A DNA stretch of 64,000 nt from Kosmotoga olearia TBF 19.5.1. GTDB taxonomy: Bacteria > Thermotogota > Thermotogae > Petrotogales > Kosmotogaceae. Location of the stretch: positions 1,736,001 through 1,800,000 of the forward strand of contig NC_012785.1 of the NCBI RefSeq assembly GCF_000023325.1. Reading direction: 5' to 3'. The notes beneath the pieces were generated by a model. That model saw nothing but the letters and a program-made list of their open reading frames with translations, was not told the DNA's origin and ran no database searches. How positions within the stretch are numbered: the stretch's first letter is position 1; each line of letters opens with the position of its first letter. Both the position numbers and the translations under genes were made by a program. Below are positions 20,685 through 40,040 of this stretch, piece after piece.

Positions 20685-21362
20685 ATGAACATAGGGGAAT
20701 TCTCCTTTTTTAACCCATCACCAAACTTTCGTGAAATGAGTATCTTAAAAGCTATTGCGGAAACTCCCAGCATCTCACAAGAACGCCTGGCGGCTGTTGC
20801 AGGAGTTGTTCCTTCAATGATTAATAGATACATTAAGGACTTCGAGGAACAGGAATACATAGTGAAAGAAGGAGAAAACAGGAGAAAGATGCAATATATC
20901 CTCACAGAAAAAGGAAGATTCAGACTGCAATTTCTTACCATTTCGTATCTTCGTGAAGTTGCAAAATTGTATGTGCAGTCTCGAGAAACCTTTGGTGAAG
21001 TACTCGATAAATTGAAAGATGAAGGTTATGAACGGCTCCTTCTTTATGGGGCTGGAATAATAGGCAGCATTCTTGTAGATGTTTTGAGAACCGAAGGATT
21101 TGTACTTGTTGGATTCGTGGACGATTCACTTTTCAAGCAGGGCAGTTTCTTTCATGACCTGAAGGTGTACTCTCCAGAGGAAGTATCAAAATTAGAATAC
21201 GATGGAATCATAGTGGCTTCTTTTAAACATGCTGATACTATTTCAAAGAATGCTATTAGAAATGGCATGAAGAATATTATGGTCTTTGAAATTTCCAGCT
21301 CTGGAACGGTTTCTATAAGACGAATAAATGGAGGGAGTACAAATGAAAGTACCGCTGTTTGA
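20685..21362 (+). CDS. Winged-helix regulator fused to a Rossmann-type sensor domain
   Basis: A 225-residue protein. Residues about 20-90 form a MarR/ArsR-like winged helix (SILKAIAETPSISQERLAAVAG, then MINRYIKDFEEQEYIVKEG and the wing KMQYILTEKGRF, quoted in part). Residues about 110-215 form a Rossmann fold beginning LLLYGAGIIGSILVDVL followed by GFVDDS, as in CoA-binding or sugar acetyltransferase N-domains, suggesting it senses a nucleotide or nucleotide sugar. Start: ATG 20685 after CGAGGTGA. Its stop lies 20 bases inside the next gene, so the two are coupled. It probably controls the wbp-like genes; a palindrome sits at its own promoter. Confidence 0.75.
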   Translation: MNIGEFSFFNPSPNFREMSILKAIAETPSISQERLAAVAGVVPSMINRYIKDFEEQEYIVKEGENRRKMQYILTEKGRFRLQFLTISYLREVAKLYVQSRETFGEVLDKLKDEGYERLLLYGAGIIGSILVDVLRTEGFVLVGFVDDSLFKQGSFFHDLKVYSPEEVSKLEYDGIIVASFKHADTISKNAIRNGMKNIMVFEISSSGTVSIRRINGGSTNESTAV

Positions 21363-22608
21363 TATCATAAGACAGTATGAAAAACTAAGGCGTGAAATCC
21401 TGGAAGCAATCGACAGCGTGATAAGTTCTGGAAGAGTGATTCTTGGAGAAAACGTGCGAAAACTTGAAGAGGAAATTGCAGAATTTGCTGGAGTAAGGCA
21501 TGGAATTGGTGTTGCTAATGGCTCAGACGCCCTTTATATCGCCCTTAAAGCCCTTGGAATTGGTGAAGGAGATTATGTCATAACGACACCATATACCTTT
21601 TTTGCTACGGCAAGTTGTATAACGCGTAATGGGGCTACTCCTATCTTCGCAGATATCGATCCTGAAACTTTTAATATTAACCTTGATCTGGTGGAAGAGA
21701 TTCTCAATTCTCATCCCCAGAGGGAAAAAATCAAGGCGTTGATTCCTGTACATTTGTTTGGCCAAACTGTCAATCTGGAAAGATTGGAATATATCAGGCA
21801 AAAGTATGGAATCAAAATACTTGAGGACTGCGCCCAGTCTATAGGATCTACATGGACATATTCTGATGGTACTGTAAAGAAAAGTGGTTCAGTAGGAGAT
21901 GCCGCAATCTTTTCTTTCTTTCCTACGAAGAATCTTGGGGCTTACGGCGATGGCGGAATGATCATTACAAACAATGATGAAATAGCAGAATTCTGCAGAA
22001 AATTCAGAGTGCATGGCTCGAAGGTCAAATACCACCACGACGTTGTTGGAATAAATTCCAGGCTTGACGAAATACAGGCAGCTGTACTAAGGGTTAAATT
22101 AAAGTATCTTGGTGAATACATCGAGAAGAGAAGAAAAATTGCGAAGTGGTATGGGGAAGAATTCGGCAGAAAAGCGTTAGTTGTTCGAGAACCGAGAACC
22201 GAGAACCGAGAGAGGAAGAACCGAGAATCTGAGAATCACAGAACACGAGAGTTCAGTAATTCTTTTTCTCGGACTCTCGGACTCTCGGACTCTCGGATTT
22301 TTATAAAGATCCCCTCCGTTCCTTCGGATAATTCCCACGTTTTTCACCAGTATGTTATTAGAGTTGGAAACGGTCAAAGAGATGCTCTAAGAGAGTTCTT
22401 GAGAGAAAGAGGCATAGGAACTTCGGTGTATTATCCCATGGGTCTTCATCAGCAAAAGTGTTTTGCATATCTGAATATTCCAGAAGGTTCTTTACCTGAG
22501 ACGGAAAGAGCTTCCAAAGAAGCTATAGCCCTTCCGATTTTTCCAGAACTTCAAAAACAGGAAATCGAATATGTGGTTCAGACGATAGAGGACTTTTTCA
22601 AGGGGTGA
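21343..22608 (+). CDS. DegT/DnrJ/EryC1 (WbpE-like) sugar aminotransferase with a repeat insertion
   Basis: PLP-dependent aminotransferase; in the WbpE pathway it converts the 3-keto sugar to the 3-amino sugar. Motifs are VPLFDIIRQYEKL, GVANGSDALYIALKALG, DCAQSIGS and the PLP lysine in FFPTKNLGAYGDGGMI. Start: ATG 21343 after GGAGGG. At about residues 282-319 a stretch of roughly 38 residues rich in Arg, Glu, Asn and Ser (REPRTENRERKNRESE...) interrupts the family pattern before HVFHQYVIRV; it is the in-frame translation of a CCGAGA repeat element. The rest of the 422-residue protein is intact, so the enzyme is probably active with an enlarged surface loop. Confidence 0.88.
   Translation: MKVPLFDIIRQYEKLRREILEAIDSVISSGRVILGENVRKLEEEIAEFAGVRHGIGVANGSDALYIALKALGIGEGDYVITTPYTFFATASCITRNGATPIFADIDPETFNINLDLVEEILNSHPQREKIKALIPVHLFGQTVNLERLEYIRQKYGIKILEDCAQSIGSTWTYSDGTVKKSGSVGDAAIFSFFPTKNLGAYGDGGMIITNNDEIAEFCRKFRVHGSKVKYHHDVVGINSRLDEIQAAVLRVKLKYLGEYIEKRRKIAKWYGEEFGRKALVVREPRTENRERKNRESENHRTREFSNSFSRTLGLSDSRIFIKIPSVPSDNSHVFHQYVIRVGNGQRDALREFLRERGIGTSVYYPMGLHQQKCFAYLNIPEGSLPETERASKEAIALPIFPELQKQEIEYVVQTIEDFFKG
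22186..22298 (+). repeat. CCGAGA element inside the aminotransferase gene
   Basis: The left arm iterates GAGAACC with a 7-base period, the right arm CTCGGACT with an 8-base period, so the arms are inverted relative to each other. The insertion keeps the reading frame. Confidence 0.85.
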
Positions 22609-23338: not shown

Positions 23339-23440
23339 TAACGAGAATCCGAGACCCGAGAGACCGAGATTATAGAAGATCGGGTCTAGGGTCTTGGGTG
23401 CAGGGTATAGAAAGAGCTGCGAGAACCGAGAATCCGAGAT

Positions 23441-23540
23441 GGCCGCTACGCGGCGGGAAAGCACGCTTCGCGTGGGTGTGCCCAGCTGCACTGGGGTAAG
23501 CACGACTTTGTCGTGGATTAGCACGTTGGCGCGTAGGTAT
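23441..23540 (+). repeat. Mini-hairpin array 1 (about 20-bp period)
   Basis: Successive hairpins GCCGC-TAC-GCGGC (23442), CACGC-TTC-GCGTG (23462), CCCAG-CTGCA-CTGGG (23481) and CACGAC-TTT-GTCGTG (23501), then a degenerate unit (23522). The spacers resemble GGTAAG. Confidence 0.8.
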
Positions 23541-23679
23541 GAACTGCTTCCCGACAATGAAAAACAGCAATTCATTACAGCCACACAAATTTGGCTTGTC
23601 ATCCTGAACTTGATTCAGGATCTCGTGCTTAAGAAAACAAGATTCTGGATTAAACATCTCCAGAATGACAGTTTTTCAC

Positions 23680-23742
23680 CTACTCCGAAGGAGTGCTCAC
23701 CCTTGGCGAAGCCAAGCTTACCCACGCTTAGCGTGCTTACCG
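23680..23742 (-). repeat. Mini-hairpin array 2, opposite orientation
   Basis: Hairpins ACTCC-GAA-GGAGT (23682), TTGGC-GAA-GCCAA (23703) and CACGC-TTA-GCGTG (23723), with 20-21 bases between starts. On the minus strand the spacers read GGTAAGC/GGTGAGC, as in array 1. Confidence 0.8.
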
Positions 23743-23825
23743 GATTCTCGCCTTCTCGGCTCTCGATGTTTTTTCGTACAACGCACAACGTACAACCAAC
23801 AACGAAATATAAGGGAGGGAAGAAC

Positions 23826-25138: not shown

Positions 25139-25170
25139 TTCGAGAGTCCGAGAAGGCGAGAATCCGAGAT
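25139..25170 (+). repeat. Left CCGAGA terminus of the S23-bearing element
   Basis: TTCGAGAGTCCGAGAAGG followed by CGAGAATCCGAGAT; inverted counterpart at 25556-25585. Confidence 0.85.
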
Positions 25171-25178
25171 GAAATTTA

Positions 25179-25553
25179 ATGGGAAGGATGATTTCCTTGG
25201 CTTTTTCTGATATGGAGCTTTATGAGGTCGCGTTAGATTTTGTTGAGGAGATTTATAGTATTACAAAGAAATTTCCTGAGGAGGAAAGATTTGGACTTAC
25301 TTCACAAATGCGACGAGCAGCGGTATCTATTCCATCAAATATCGCCGAAGGCAACGGTAGAAGATATTCAAGGGAATATTTACATTTCTTGTACAATGCT
25401 AGGGGATCTTTGATGGAGTTAAGAACCCAAATTGAAATAGCAAATCGTTTAGGCTATATTTTTCCAGAAGAGCATGACAATTTATTAGATTTTTCTGAGA
25501 AGGTCAGATTAATGCTTCAGAAACTAATTGGTTCTATACAAAGGAAAGTCTGA
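25179..25553 (+). CDS. Four-helix-bundle protein, S23/IVP family
   Basis: A protein of up to 124 residues with the family signature SQMRRAAVSIPSNIAEGNGR (residues about 47-66) and four amphipathic helices. Relatives are encoded in 23S rRNA intervening sequences and near diversity-generating retroelements (Avd), where they bind nucleic acid; no function is proven for free-standing copies. No good ribosome site precedes ATG 25179; the family start pattern suggests TTG 25197 (LAFSDMELYEVAL) after AAGGA. The gene is flanked by inverted CCGAGA clusters and sits between two sugar genes with which it has no functional link, so it is probably cargo of a repeat element. Confidence 0.8.
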   Translation: MGRMISLAFSDMELYEVALDFVEEIYSITKKFPEEERFGLTSQMRRAAVSIPSNIAEGNGRRYSREYLHFLYNARGSLMELRTQIEIANRLGYIFPEEHDNLLDFSEKVRLMLQKLIGSIQRKV

Positions 25554-25555
25554 TA

Positions 25556-25585
25556 ATTCTCGGGCTCTCGGATTCTCGGTTCTCG
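25556..25585 (-). repeat. Right CCGAGA terminus of the S23-bearing element
   Basis: ATTCTCGGGCTCTCGG followed by ATTCTCGGTTCTCG, the inverted counterpart of 25139-25170. Both ends are bordered by GTTC on the outside, possibly by chance. Confidence 0.85.
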
Positions 25586-25603: not shown

Positions 25604-26725
25604 GTGAGGTTACGTGCCGCATTAATCGGTTGTGGGCGTATCGGGACGAAAAAGCATATTGAGGCGTTTGCTGGTAATGCTGATAAAATAGAGCTCGTCG
25701 CGGTATGTGATATTGTGAAGGAAAAAGCTGAAAAAGCAGCAGAAGAGTATAAGAAACGTTGTGGGTTACATGAAAACGAATACGTACAACCCACAACCCA
25801 CAACCCACAACGTACTTACAAACCACAAGTTATTACTGACTATTCTGAATTACTTGATAAAGATATCGATTTTGTGACCATTGCCACAGAGAGCGGGAAT
25901 CATTATCGTATAACCGTGGATTTTCTTTCTGCCGGAAAACATGTCCTCGTTGAAAAACCAATGGCTTTGAGTACCAAGCATATGGACGAGATGATTTCTT
26001 TAGCCAGTGAGAAACGGCTAAAACTTGGAGTGTGTTTTCAAAATAGATTCAATCCTCCTATACAGGAATTAAGGAAAAAAATTGAAAGCGGTGCCTTTGG
26101 GATAATTTTCAATGCTACTGCCCGAATTCTCTGGAATAGAAACAGGGCGTATTACGAGCAGGCATCCTGGCGAGGTACGTGGAAAATGGACGGTGGAACT
26201 CTCATGAATCAATGTTCCCATAACATAGATCTTTTGCAGTGGATGCTCGGCGGGAATGTAAAGCGTATTTACGCTGTTACCAGGAATTACAACCACGATT
26301 ATATAGAAGCAGAGGATTTTGGCGTGGCTATTGTTGAATTTGATAATGGTACGGTTGGAATAATTGAAGGAACCGCAAATGTGTATCCAAGAAATCTTGA
26401 AGAAACGCTGTCAGTATTTGGCGAAACCGGGACGGTTGTAATAGGAGGACTTGCCGTTAACAGAATCCAGACATGGAGATTTCCAAACGAGGAAGAACAC
26501 CCCTTTATGAGATTACCCGATCCGGAGACTGTTTATGGCAATGGACACGTACCTCTTTTTGAAGATTTTGTTGAAGCAATTGTTGAAGACAGGAAACCCT
26601 ATGTTTCTGGAGAAGATGGAAAAAAAGCTGTAGAGATAATTCTTGGGATATACAAATCTGCCAAGGAAGGGAAACCGGTTGAATTTCCTATCGGAGAATT
26701 CTCAACTGAAGATATGAAGAGATAG
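25604..26725 (+). CDS. Gfo/Idh/MocA oxidoreductase (WbpB-like) with a repeat insertion
   Basis: NAD-dependent 3-dehydrogenase of a UDP-N-acetylglucosaminuronate, in the WbpB role. The N-domain starts RLRAALIGCGRIGTKKH... (glycine-rich G-x-G-x-x-G), the diagnostic EKP motif is in VLVEKPMALS, and WRGTWKMDGGTLMNQCSHNIDLLQW is quoted here only as MDGGTLMNQCSHNIDLLQW with the catalytic His. GTG start at 25604 after AAAGGAGGTG. Residues about 50-73 (CGLHENEYVQPTTHNPQRTY) are not expected in the family; they translate an ACGTACAACCCACAACC repeat inserted in a loop after the second beta strand. The rest looks intact. The gene ends the wbp-like set. Confidence 0.86.
   Translation: MRLRAALIGCGRIGTKKHIEAFAGNADKIELVAVCDIVKEKAEKAAEEYKKRCGLHENEYVQPTTHNPQRTYKPQVITDYSELLDKDIDFVTIATESGNHYRITVDFLSAGKHVLVEKPMALSTKHMDEMISLASEKRLKLGVCFQNRFNPPIQELRKKIESGAFGIIFNATARILWNRNRAYYEQASWRGTWKMDGGTLMNQCSHNIDLLQWMLGGNVKRIYAVTRNYNHDYIEAEDFGVAIVEFDNGTVGIIEGTANVYPRNLEETLSVFGETGTVVIGGLAVNRIQTWRFPNEEEHPFMRLPDPETVYGNGHVPLFEDFVEAIVEDRKPYVSGEDGKKAVEIILGIYKSAKEGKPVEFPIGEFSTEDMKR
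25756..25813 (+). repeat. CAACCCACAACGT repeat inside the WbpB-like gene
   Basis: ACGTTGTGGGTT (25756) and AACCCACAACGT (25802) are perfect inverted copies; between them ACCCACA units repeat with a 7-base period. The reading frame is kept. Confidence 0.8.
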
Positions 26726-39455: not shown

Positions 39456-40040
39456 CGTTGTGCGTTGTACGTAACGACCGAGACTCGGGAGTCGAGAACC
39501 GAGATCCGGTGAAGAAAAATTAAAGAGCGAGAATGGATGTTGGAGACTGGAGCTTAGATAAAGATCGGGTATAGGGTCTGGGGTCTAGGTTGTAGAGAAA
39601 ATATTGAAAAGCAGAGATCTGAGAAAAAGATCGTTGTCGGTTGTGGGTCGTGCGTGAAGGCCAAAAAAACGAGAATCCGAGATGGCGAGAAGGCGAGAAG
39701 GCCGCTACGCGGCGGTACGAATCCCTTTCGGGATTGACACGAACTCCTGCGGAGTTGACTAGAACCACTACGTGGTTGTTCTGAACCGCTTCGCGGTTGA
39801 TTTATTACAACCTCGGAAATCTGGCTTGTCATCCTGAACTTGATTCAGGATCTATCATTCATGACTTTCGTATTCTCGTACTCTCAGTTCTCGAATACCG
39901 GATCTCGAATCTCGATGTTCTTAGCGAATAGCTTACTTTGTTTTTGATCAGGGAAAATGTTAAAATTCTGTGTAGGAAGTATCGTAATAGAAACTTTCAA
40001 AGATAGGATTTTCAGGCCGAAGGGATAGAGGGTTGGTTTT
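39456..40040. repeat. Composite CCGAGA repeat element with hairpin array (copy B)
   Basis: No gene is supported between the rRNA terminator and the GNAT gene. In order: GTTGTGCGTTGTACGT (39457-39472); CCGAGA units (39478-39507); a GATCGGGT-rich segment (39563-39597); GTTGTCGGTTGTGGGTCGT (39634-39652); CCGAGA units (39669-39690); the hairpin array (39700-39800); CCTGAACTTGATTCAGG hairpin (39829-39853); inverted CCGAGA-like units (39870-39918). The last 120 bases before the GNAT gene hold only AT-rich leader sequence. Confidence 0.85.
39700..39800 (+). repeat. Mini-hairpin array 3 (21-bp period)
   Basis: GCCGC-TAC-GCGGC (39701), AATCCC-TTTC-GGGATT (39720), AACTCC-TGC-GGAGTT (39742), AACCAC-TAC-GTGGTT (39763) and AACCGC-TTC-GCGGTT (39784). 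Spacers are GACACG, GACTAG and GTTCTG. Each stem has a different sequence but pairs perfectly. Confidence 0.85.

Follow-up and report, generated by a model that had tools for sequence, protein, structure and literature searches.

An in-frame inverted heptamer element in a Kosmotoga olearia aminotransferase gene, and inverted heptamer arrays around IVP genes

An inverted repeat inside an aminotransferase gene

We analyzed a 64-kb stretch of the 2,302,126-bp genome of Kosmotoga olearia TBF 19.5.1 (positions 1,736,001-1,800,000), referred to here as the window. It contains a gene for a DegT/WbpE-type aminotransferase, whose nearest solved relatives are 7b0d and WbpE (3nyu), and this gene carries a repeat element within its coding sequence (Table 1). 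A full element with arms of the same CCGAGA class around a gene for an IVP protein lies about 3 kb further downstream, a feature missed in the first-pass annotation of this DNA.

Table 1. Repeat elements and associated genes, in window coordinates
Feature	Position	Strand	Remarks
DegT/WbpE-type aminotransferase gene	21343-22608	+	PF01041, E 6.1e-111; holds the insert
Solo inverted heptamer element, in frame	22186-22298	+	Residues 282-319 of the aminotransferase
Left arm of the insert, (CGAGAAC)n, period 7	22186-22227	+	Tandem Repeats Finder
Right arm of the insert, (TCTCGGAC)n, period 8, 100% matches	22267-22297	+	Tandem Repeats Finder
CGAGA arrays (23342-23369, 23420-23439) and TCTCG array (23746-23765)	23342-23765		Around an intergenic small-hairpin mosaic
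Complete element, CCGAGA arms around IVP gene	25141-25585	+	Inverted pair at 1761141-1761585 of the genome
IVP gene within the complete element	25179-25553	+	PF05635, E 3.1e-38; family alignment matches 2gsc, the structure of the IVP XCC0516
Second in-frame heptamer insert, GTTGTGG/ACAACCC	25757-25811	+	Within a Gfo/Idh dehydrogenase gene
More arrays (CGAGA, TCTCG), located downstream of the rRNA operon	39479-39914		Around a similar hairpin mosaic

The aminotransferase insert is an inverted pair of CCGAGA arrays separated by a short middle, and its arms have the tandem units of about 7 bp that characterize heptanucleotide simple repeats (STRR/LSSR), with a period of 7 on the left and 8 on the right. 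The ORF enclosing it (21328-22608; 421 aa counted from the ATG at 21343) runs without a stop through both arms, so that the 113-bp element is indeed inserted in frame, as the first-pass annotation had read it, and conserved motifs are found on either side. As RNA the insert folds at -49.9 kcal/mol (z -4.4; none of 200 shuffles equal), and its arms and fold correspond to inverted end repeats of the kind seen in IVS/IVP elements. No recognizable remnant of an IVP gene is present in the 113 bp, which encode no IVP, and an Rfam search of the 64-kb window at gathering thresholds returned rRNA and tRNA only.

The number of added residues was estimated from the interval between a conserved Tyr and the HVFHQYV motif, which spans 61 codons in the window gene compared with 24 in L046, the sole insert-free homologue within the host family, and 22-24 in eight measured homologues from outside it. 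The window protein has therefore gained about 37 residues, close to the 38 first proposed; divergence of its flanks from the empty homologue keeps the ends of the insert from being placed exactly. The insert had been located just before HVFHQYVIRV; it does lie upstream of this motif, but about a dozen native residues (IKIPSVPSDNS) intervene. In an AlphaFold2 model built from 18 sequences (mean pLDDT 83.6), residues 284-317, which correspond to the insert, have a pLDDT below 50, as do two further short stretches (194-201 and 225-229), while most of the protein outside the insert is modeled with confidence. The insert is thus predicted to form a disordered loop, which the first-pass annotation had proposed to look for in a structural model, and 7b0d does without the extra residues: two aligned blocks that are 48 residues apart in the query are 6 residues apart in its chain.

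CCGAGA arrays in the genome and the aminotransferase slot in relatives

Searching the window for CCGAGAACCGAGA with up to two mismatches gave 10 occurrences where 1.43 are expected, a count that none of 100 shuffles attained, and with up to one mismatch the genome holds 154, compared with 6 for the reversed control. We then took a census of arrays, defined as three or more CGAGA cores with intervals of up to 12 permitted, in 55 stretches picked around CCGAGA sites (349 kb, window included). All 339 core intervals in the 123 arrays found are 7 (149) or 8 (190). The copies lack a long consensus, and the only part that they have in common is the CGAGA core recurring every 7 or 8 bases. Neighboring arrays within 700 bp are ordered CGAGA-then-TCTCG in 13 cases, lie on the same strand in 20, and are never ordered TCTCG-then-CGAGA; a gene for a PF05635 protein lies within one of the 13 inverted pairs, the one at 25141-25585 of the window. 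With frames judged by eye, the aminotransferase pair is the only one among the 123 arrays inside a recognizable conserved gene, and a few arrays appear to lie directly before genes (1074036, 1505185 and 1759746 of the genome). Many CGAGA arrays are followed by small variable hairpins.

These hairpins are about 20 bp long and occur in tandem, joined by a constant linker, their stems varying in sequence while staying complementary (23433-23740 and 39700-39800 of the window). Similar arrays flank the IVP loci L009, L024, L025 and L034, and the space next to CCGAGA arrays is occupied by them as well. Both hairpin mosaics of the window contain a 54-bp repeat, GTCATCCTGAACTTGATTCAGGATCT, whose copies at 23570-23623 and 39800-39853 are 89% identical. 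Elsewhere in the source genome, single CCGAGA arrays are dense at 1.27-1.46 Mb. Up to about 1.345 Mb most of them are on the minus strand, beyond 1.38 Mb most are on the plus strand, and two RAYT-like genes (1341980 and 1355579) are located between these zones.

We next compared the insertion point, here called the slot, among homologues. A search at E 1e-60 matched 32 of the 41 genomes of our set, and 20 of the 38 places listed were read, one of them being the window gene. The insert is absent from all ten homologues read outside the host family (L049-L058, which include the eight measured above); within the family, in contrast, the slot is filled with extra residues in eight of the nine other genes (L040-L048), with 38-73 codons between the anchors. 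Inverted arms score better than in at least 499 of 500 shuffles in the window gene and in L040, L042, L043, L044, L045 and L047, that is, in 7 of the 10 host-family genes. L041, whose left arm is of GGGTCTG units and whose right arm is of ACAACNC, fails this test (252 of 500 shuffles are as good), and so does L048, which has a right-hand array only (405 of 500).

The contents of the slot belong to different repeat classes: GTTGTNG in L040, L042, L044 and L045, and GGGTNTA in L043 and L047. The class can differ between genes that are 86-93% identical upstream of the slot (L041, L042, L043). Over the 60 bases upstream, L041 is 93% identical to L043 and 88% to L042, and the mismatch between its left and right classes would most simply be explained by recombination with an L043-like allele. 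That the slot is filled across the family with differing classes indicates that the slot is common and its contents are exchanged; since homologues in sister genomes hold other heptamer arrays there, it is no unique accident. The first-pass annotation had named a loop of the same length and of unrelated but conserved sequence, in homologues without CCGAGA repeats, as an observation that would tell against an absorbed repeat. This is half the case: other sequences do fill the slot, but these loops are themselves heptamer elements. The second in-frame insert of the window, in the Gfo/Idh dehydrogenase gene, reads as VQPTTHNPQRT, and L015 and L020 are filled at the same place.

Inverted heptamer arms around IVP genes

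PF05635 proteins are encoded in 14 of the 41 genomes, 13 of which belong to the host family, and inverted heptamers of several classes flank many of their genes. To look beyond this set, we scanned an alignment of 17 IVPs against genome contigs, so that loci were chosen by protein similarity and not by their flanks; the sample consists of the best 80 of at least 586 confirmed relatives, hence of the closest relatives only, and comes from many phyla. For the 79 usable loci among these best 80 of at least 586, the inverted flank score has a median of 35, compared with 16 for 97 control genes of the same loci, and exceeds 30 at 51 of the 79 IVP loci compared with 2 of the 97 controls (Mann-Whitney p 8e-24); scores no higher than 23 occur at 16 of the 79, and scores above 23 in 7 of the 97 controls. 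A second control of 370 windows from the same loci gave a median of 17 versus 37 for the IVP genes of this best-80 sample with 200-base flanks. In the same best 80 of at least 586, self-match of the flanks peaks at lags of 7, 8 and 14 (lag 7: 0.367, versus 0.264 in controls), and the heptamer score exceeds the 95th percentile of controls upstream in 52 of 80 loci, downstream in 58 and at both flanks in 45. Base composition differs between the arms, with G in excess upstream (1850 G, 1083 C) and C in excess downstream (1101 G, 1757 C). These results show that the association of IVP genes with inverted heptamers extends, with strong statistical support, far beyond the source genome.

The heptamers themselves vary from element to element, e.g., GGACAAG/CTTGTCC in L064, GATTCGT/ACGAATC in L067 and GGGATTC/GAATCCC in L071. 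The IVP genes show a weak excess of co-direction with their neighbors (55 of 71 upstream and 58 of 75 downstream, versus 54 of 84 control pairs). In several Xanthomonadales (L071, L081, L121, L123, L125), the IVP element, with GGGATTC-type arms, lies by eye between apparent accB and accC genes.

Within the host family, array type tracks IVP lineage. Six IVPs are flanked, as labeled by eye, by the variable-stem hairpin arrays of about 20 bp and not by heptamers, and in a tree of 38 IVPs these six form one clade (support 100/97), so that a single change suffices, fewer than in any of 500 shuffles; bootstrap values of this tree are not fully settled, and the remaining 32 were labeled heptamer by default. 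Arms are shared by 3 of 8 pairs of IVPs at least 70% identical that have unrelated outer flanks, versus about 0.4% of pairs at 45-55% identity. Below 70% IVP identity the arms are hardly more alike than background, so they are not a lasting attribute of an IVP.

The clearest sign of movement is a duplication in the source genome, L009/L024, with 93% identity over 503 bp, about 19 kb apart and with unrelated flanks, though it belongs to the hairpin-array group and not to the CCGAGA class. Between the genes for a UDP-sugar dehydrogenase and Gfo/Idh, a slot recognized by eye holds IVPs of separate lineages (L035 and L033; L015, L018, L020, L028 and L030; L017) with different arms, as expected if elements replace one another. 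No clean empty site was found for a heptamer-type element, the "empty" slots in IVP clusters of sister genomes being held by other heptamer arrays. Inverted arms are present, and neither a target-site duplication nor a defined end was seen, both being beyond the resolution of the comparison. The IVP clusters of sister genomes look prophage-like by eye. Reverse transcriptase was considered as an IVP partner and rejected, its matches in 17 of the 41 genomes showing no agreement with IVP.

Origin of the insert

We favor, with a probability of roughly 55%, the reading that the insert is an IVP-less, non-autonomous derivative of a widespread small mobile IVP element, tolerated as a loop. A full element would consist of one gene for an IVP, a four-helix-bundle protein, flanked by a G-rich array of degenerate heptamers on its upstream side and an inverted, C-rich one on its downstream side, so that the transcript or a single strand would form a long hairpin. 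The heptamer sequence would be free to vary among elements, with the 7-bp rhythm (7/8 bp here) and the inverted arrangement kept. IVP is a relative of Avd, the accessory protein that partners a reverse transcriptase in diversity-generating retroelements (PMC10053308, in the part seen). It probably binds the hairpin nucleic acid, which it would recognize by shape, and aids its copying to new sites, and derivatives without the gene would be mobilized by it in trans. Local slippage could lengthen the arms, as their differing unit lengths in the insert suggest. Most copies persist between genes, one stop-free copy in frame persists in an aminotransferase loop that would tolerate added residues, and other heptamer classes hold the same slot in relatives.

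The favored reading draws on the in-frame insert and the full CCGAGA/IVP element about 3 kb away; on the inverted repeats at IVP genes of many phyla, with their lag-7 excess and two-sided heptamer scores; and on the array type following IVP lineage, the L009/L024 copy, the exchange of classes in the slot and the heptamers of the Coxiella IVS. Against it stand the lack of a clean empty site, of a target duplication or defined end and of an IVP remnant in the insert, the membership of the duplicated element in the hairpin-array group, the low-scoring IVP loci and high-scoring controls in the sample of the best 80 of at least 586, the instability of arms below 70% IVP identity, the presence of reverse transcriptase not following IVP, and the failure of L041 and L048 in the arm test.

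An alternative that we consider unlikely, though deserving attention, is local expansion of simple repeats by replication slippage and fold-back copying, which could occur anywhere, IVP genes and protein loops being merely tolerant places. Insert arms of unequal unit length are what it predicts, and the many partnerless single arrays, with 20 same-strand neighbor pairs, suit it as well, but it does not account for arrays that lie close to IVP genes rather than to their neighbors in these loci, for one class common to 154 genome sites, or for the fixed orientation of pairs (13 versus 0). There is a small chance that the insert belongs to a family like the Rickettsia palindromic elements, occurring in frame in many genes and unrelated to IVP. 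The size, the palindrome and the in-frame position within a conserved gene would fit, yet a long consensus is missing, one gene among 123 arrays is affected, homologues in sister genomes carry other sequences in the slot, and the CCGAGA class is shared with an IVP element.

Mobilization of REP hairpins by a RAYT-like Y1 transposase is a slim prospect. RAYT genes of about 240-340 codons do exist in the source genome and in G002, G003, G007, G010 and G016, some of them near IVP clusters. We rejected RAYT as the mover, however, as most of the eleven RAYT gene flanks inspected hold another palindrome, around GGGACAGACTCC; CCGAGA units adjoin only one of the eleven genes (L214), without bracketing it, and several IVP genomes, such as G001 and G012, have no Y1 match. 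Many of the RAYT-like genes of the host family (L213-L223) lie near GGGACAGACTCC-type palindromes resembling a separate REP family. Least probable of all is that the loop is adaptive, a selected part of the enzyme with an incidental resemblance to repeats: most host-family members do have the slot filled, but with inverted-arm arrays in 7 of 10 genes and no conserved peptide, the pLDDT is low, and homologues outside the family manage without a loop.

Among known systems, the insert and its relatives come closest to several without coinciding with any. The intervening sequence (IVS) of Coxiella burnetii 23S rRNA, described in the part of PMC4990558 consulted as selfish, with an S23p ORF, and removed by RNase III, shares the protein family and the inverted repeats around the ORF, and has heptamers, tandem GACAGAT units placed before the ORF; the same source gives IVP proteins a solved fold and no known function, and the 23S IVP domain is also listed in a figure legend of PMC10910872, likewise seen in part. 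Unlike the 23S IVS, the elements here lie between or inside protein genes (the window 23S gene matches the full Rfam model over 2954 bases, about normal length, and the insert is outside it), both arms are heptamer arrays, and many copies lack IVP. The likeness to Rickettsia palindromic elements (105-146 bp, in 19 reading frames according to the part of PMC2229807 consulted), to which the first-pass annotation had pointed, holds for a hairpin of about 100-150 bp readable in frame inside conserved enzymes, but not for the missing long consensus, the rarity in genes, the exchange of classes in the slot and the IVP link. MITEs and REP/REPIN (PMC2229807, same part) are similarly small non-coding hairpins probably moved in trans; in the elements here, by contrast, no defined terminal repeat or target duplication was seen at the resolution of the comparison, and no pairing with a known transposase.

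Bacterial simple repeats are reported to contain an excess of heptamers (PMC4692102 and PMC4679880, as far as seen). The heterogeneous units of Xanthomonas GGGAATC (with 70-75 convergent pairs in each genome) and Nostoc GGGGA(C/T)T are described as G-quadruplex simple repeats. They resemble those here, but the part of PMC4692102 consulted states no IVP connection, and its authors note that no detailed literature on heptameric repeats is available; GGGAATC-type units occur in the arms of the Xanthomonas IVP loci L081 and L125. The TAACTGA repeats of marine Beggiatoaceae are also 7-bp units between genes, with a few inside reading frames, but nearly all are direct and not inverted pairs, and no IVP connection was found in the consulted part of PMC4679880. 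In the open-access papers that we searched, we found no general link between IVP genes and heptamers beyond the Coxiella report.

An in-frame palindrome alone is a known kind of event, and the interest of this one comes from a slot that changes class and from the IVP link, the mechanism proposed for it being conjectural. The aminotransferase slot shows that elements of this kind can turn into coding sequence and be swapped in place, and the IVP-heptamer link offers an origin of the repeats that can be tested, as well as a role for IVP. More tentatively, and at somewhat less than even odds, IVP with inverted period-7 arrays may constitute a pan-bacterial class of mobile elements and a main source of unexplained bacterial heptameric simple repeats. 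A process associated with IVP would write or rewrite the two arms jointly, so that one class takes the place of another in a fixed slot, intragenic loops included. If true, rhythm and symmetry, rather than any conserved terminal sequence, would define this class.
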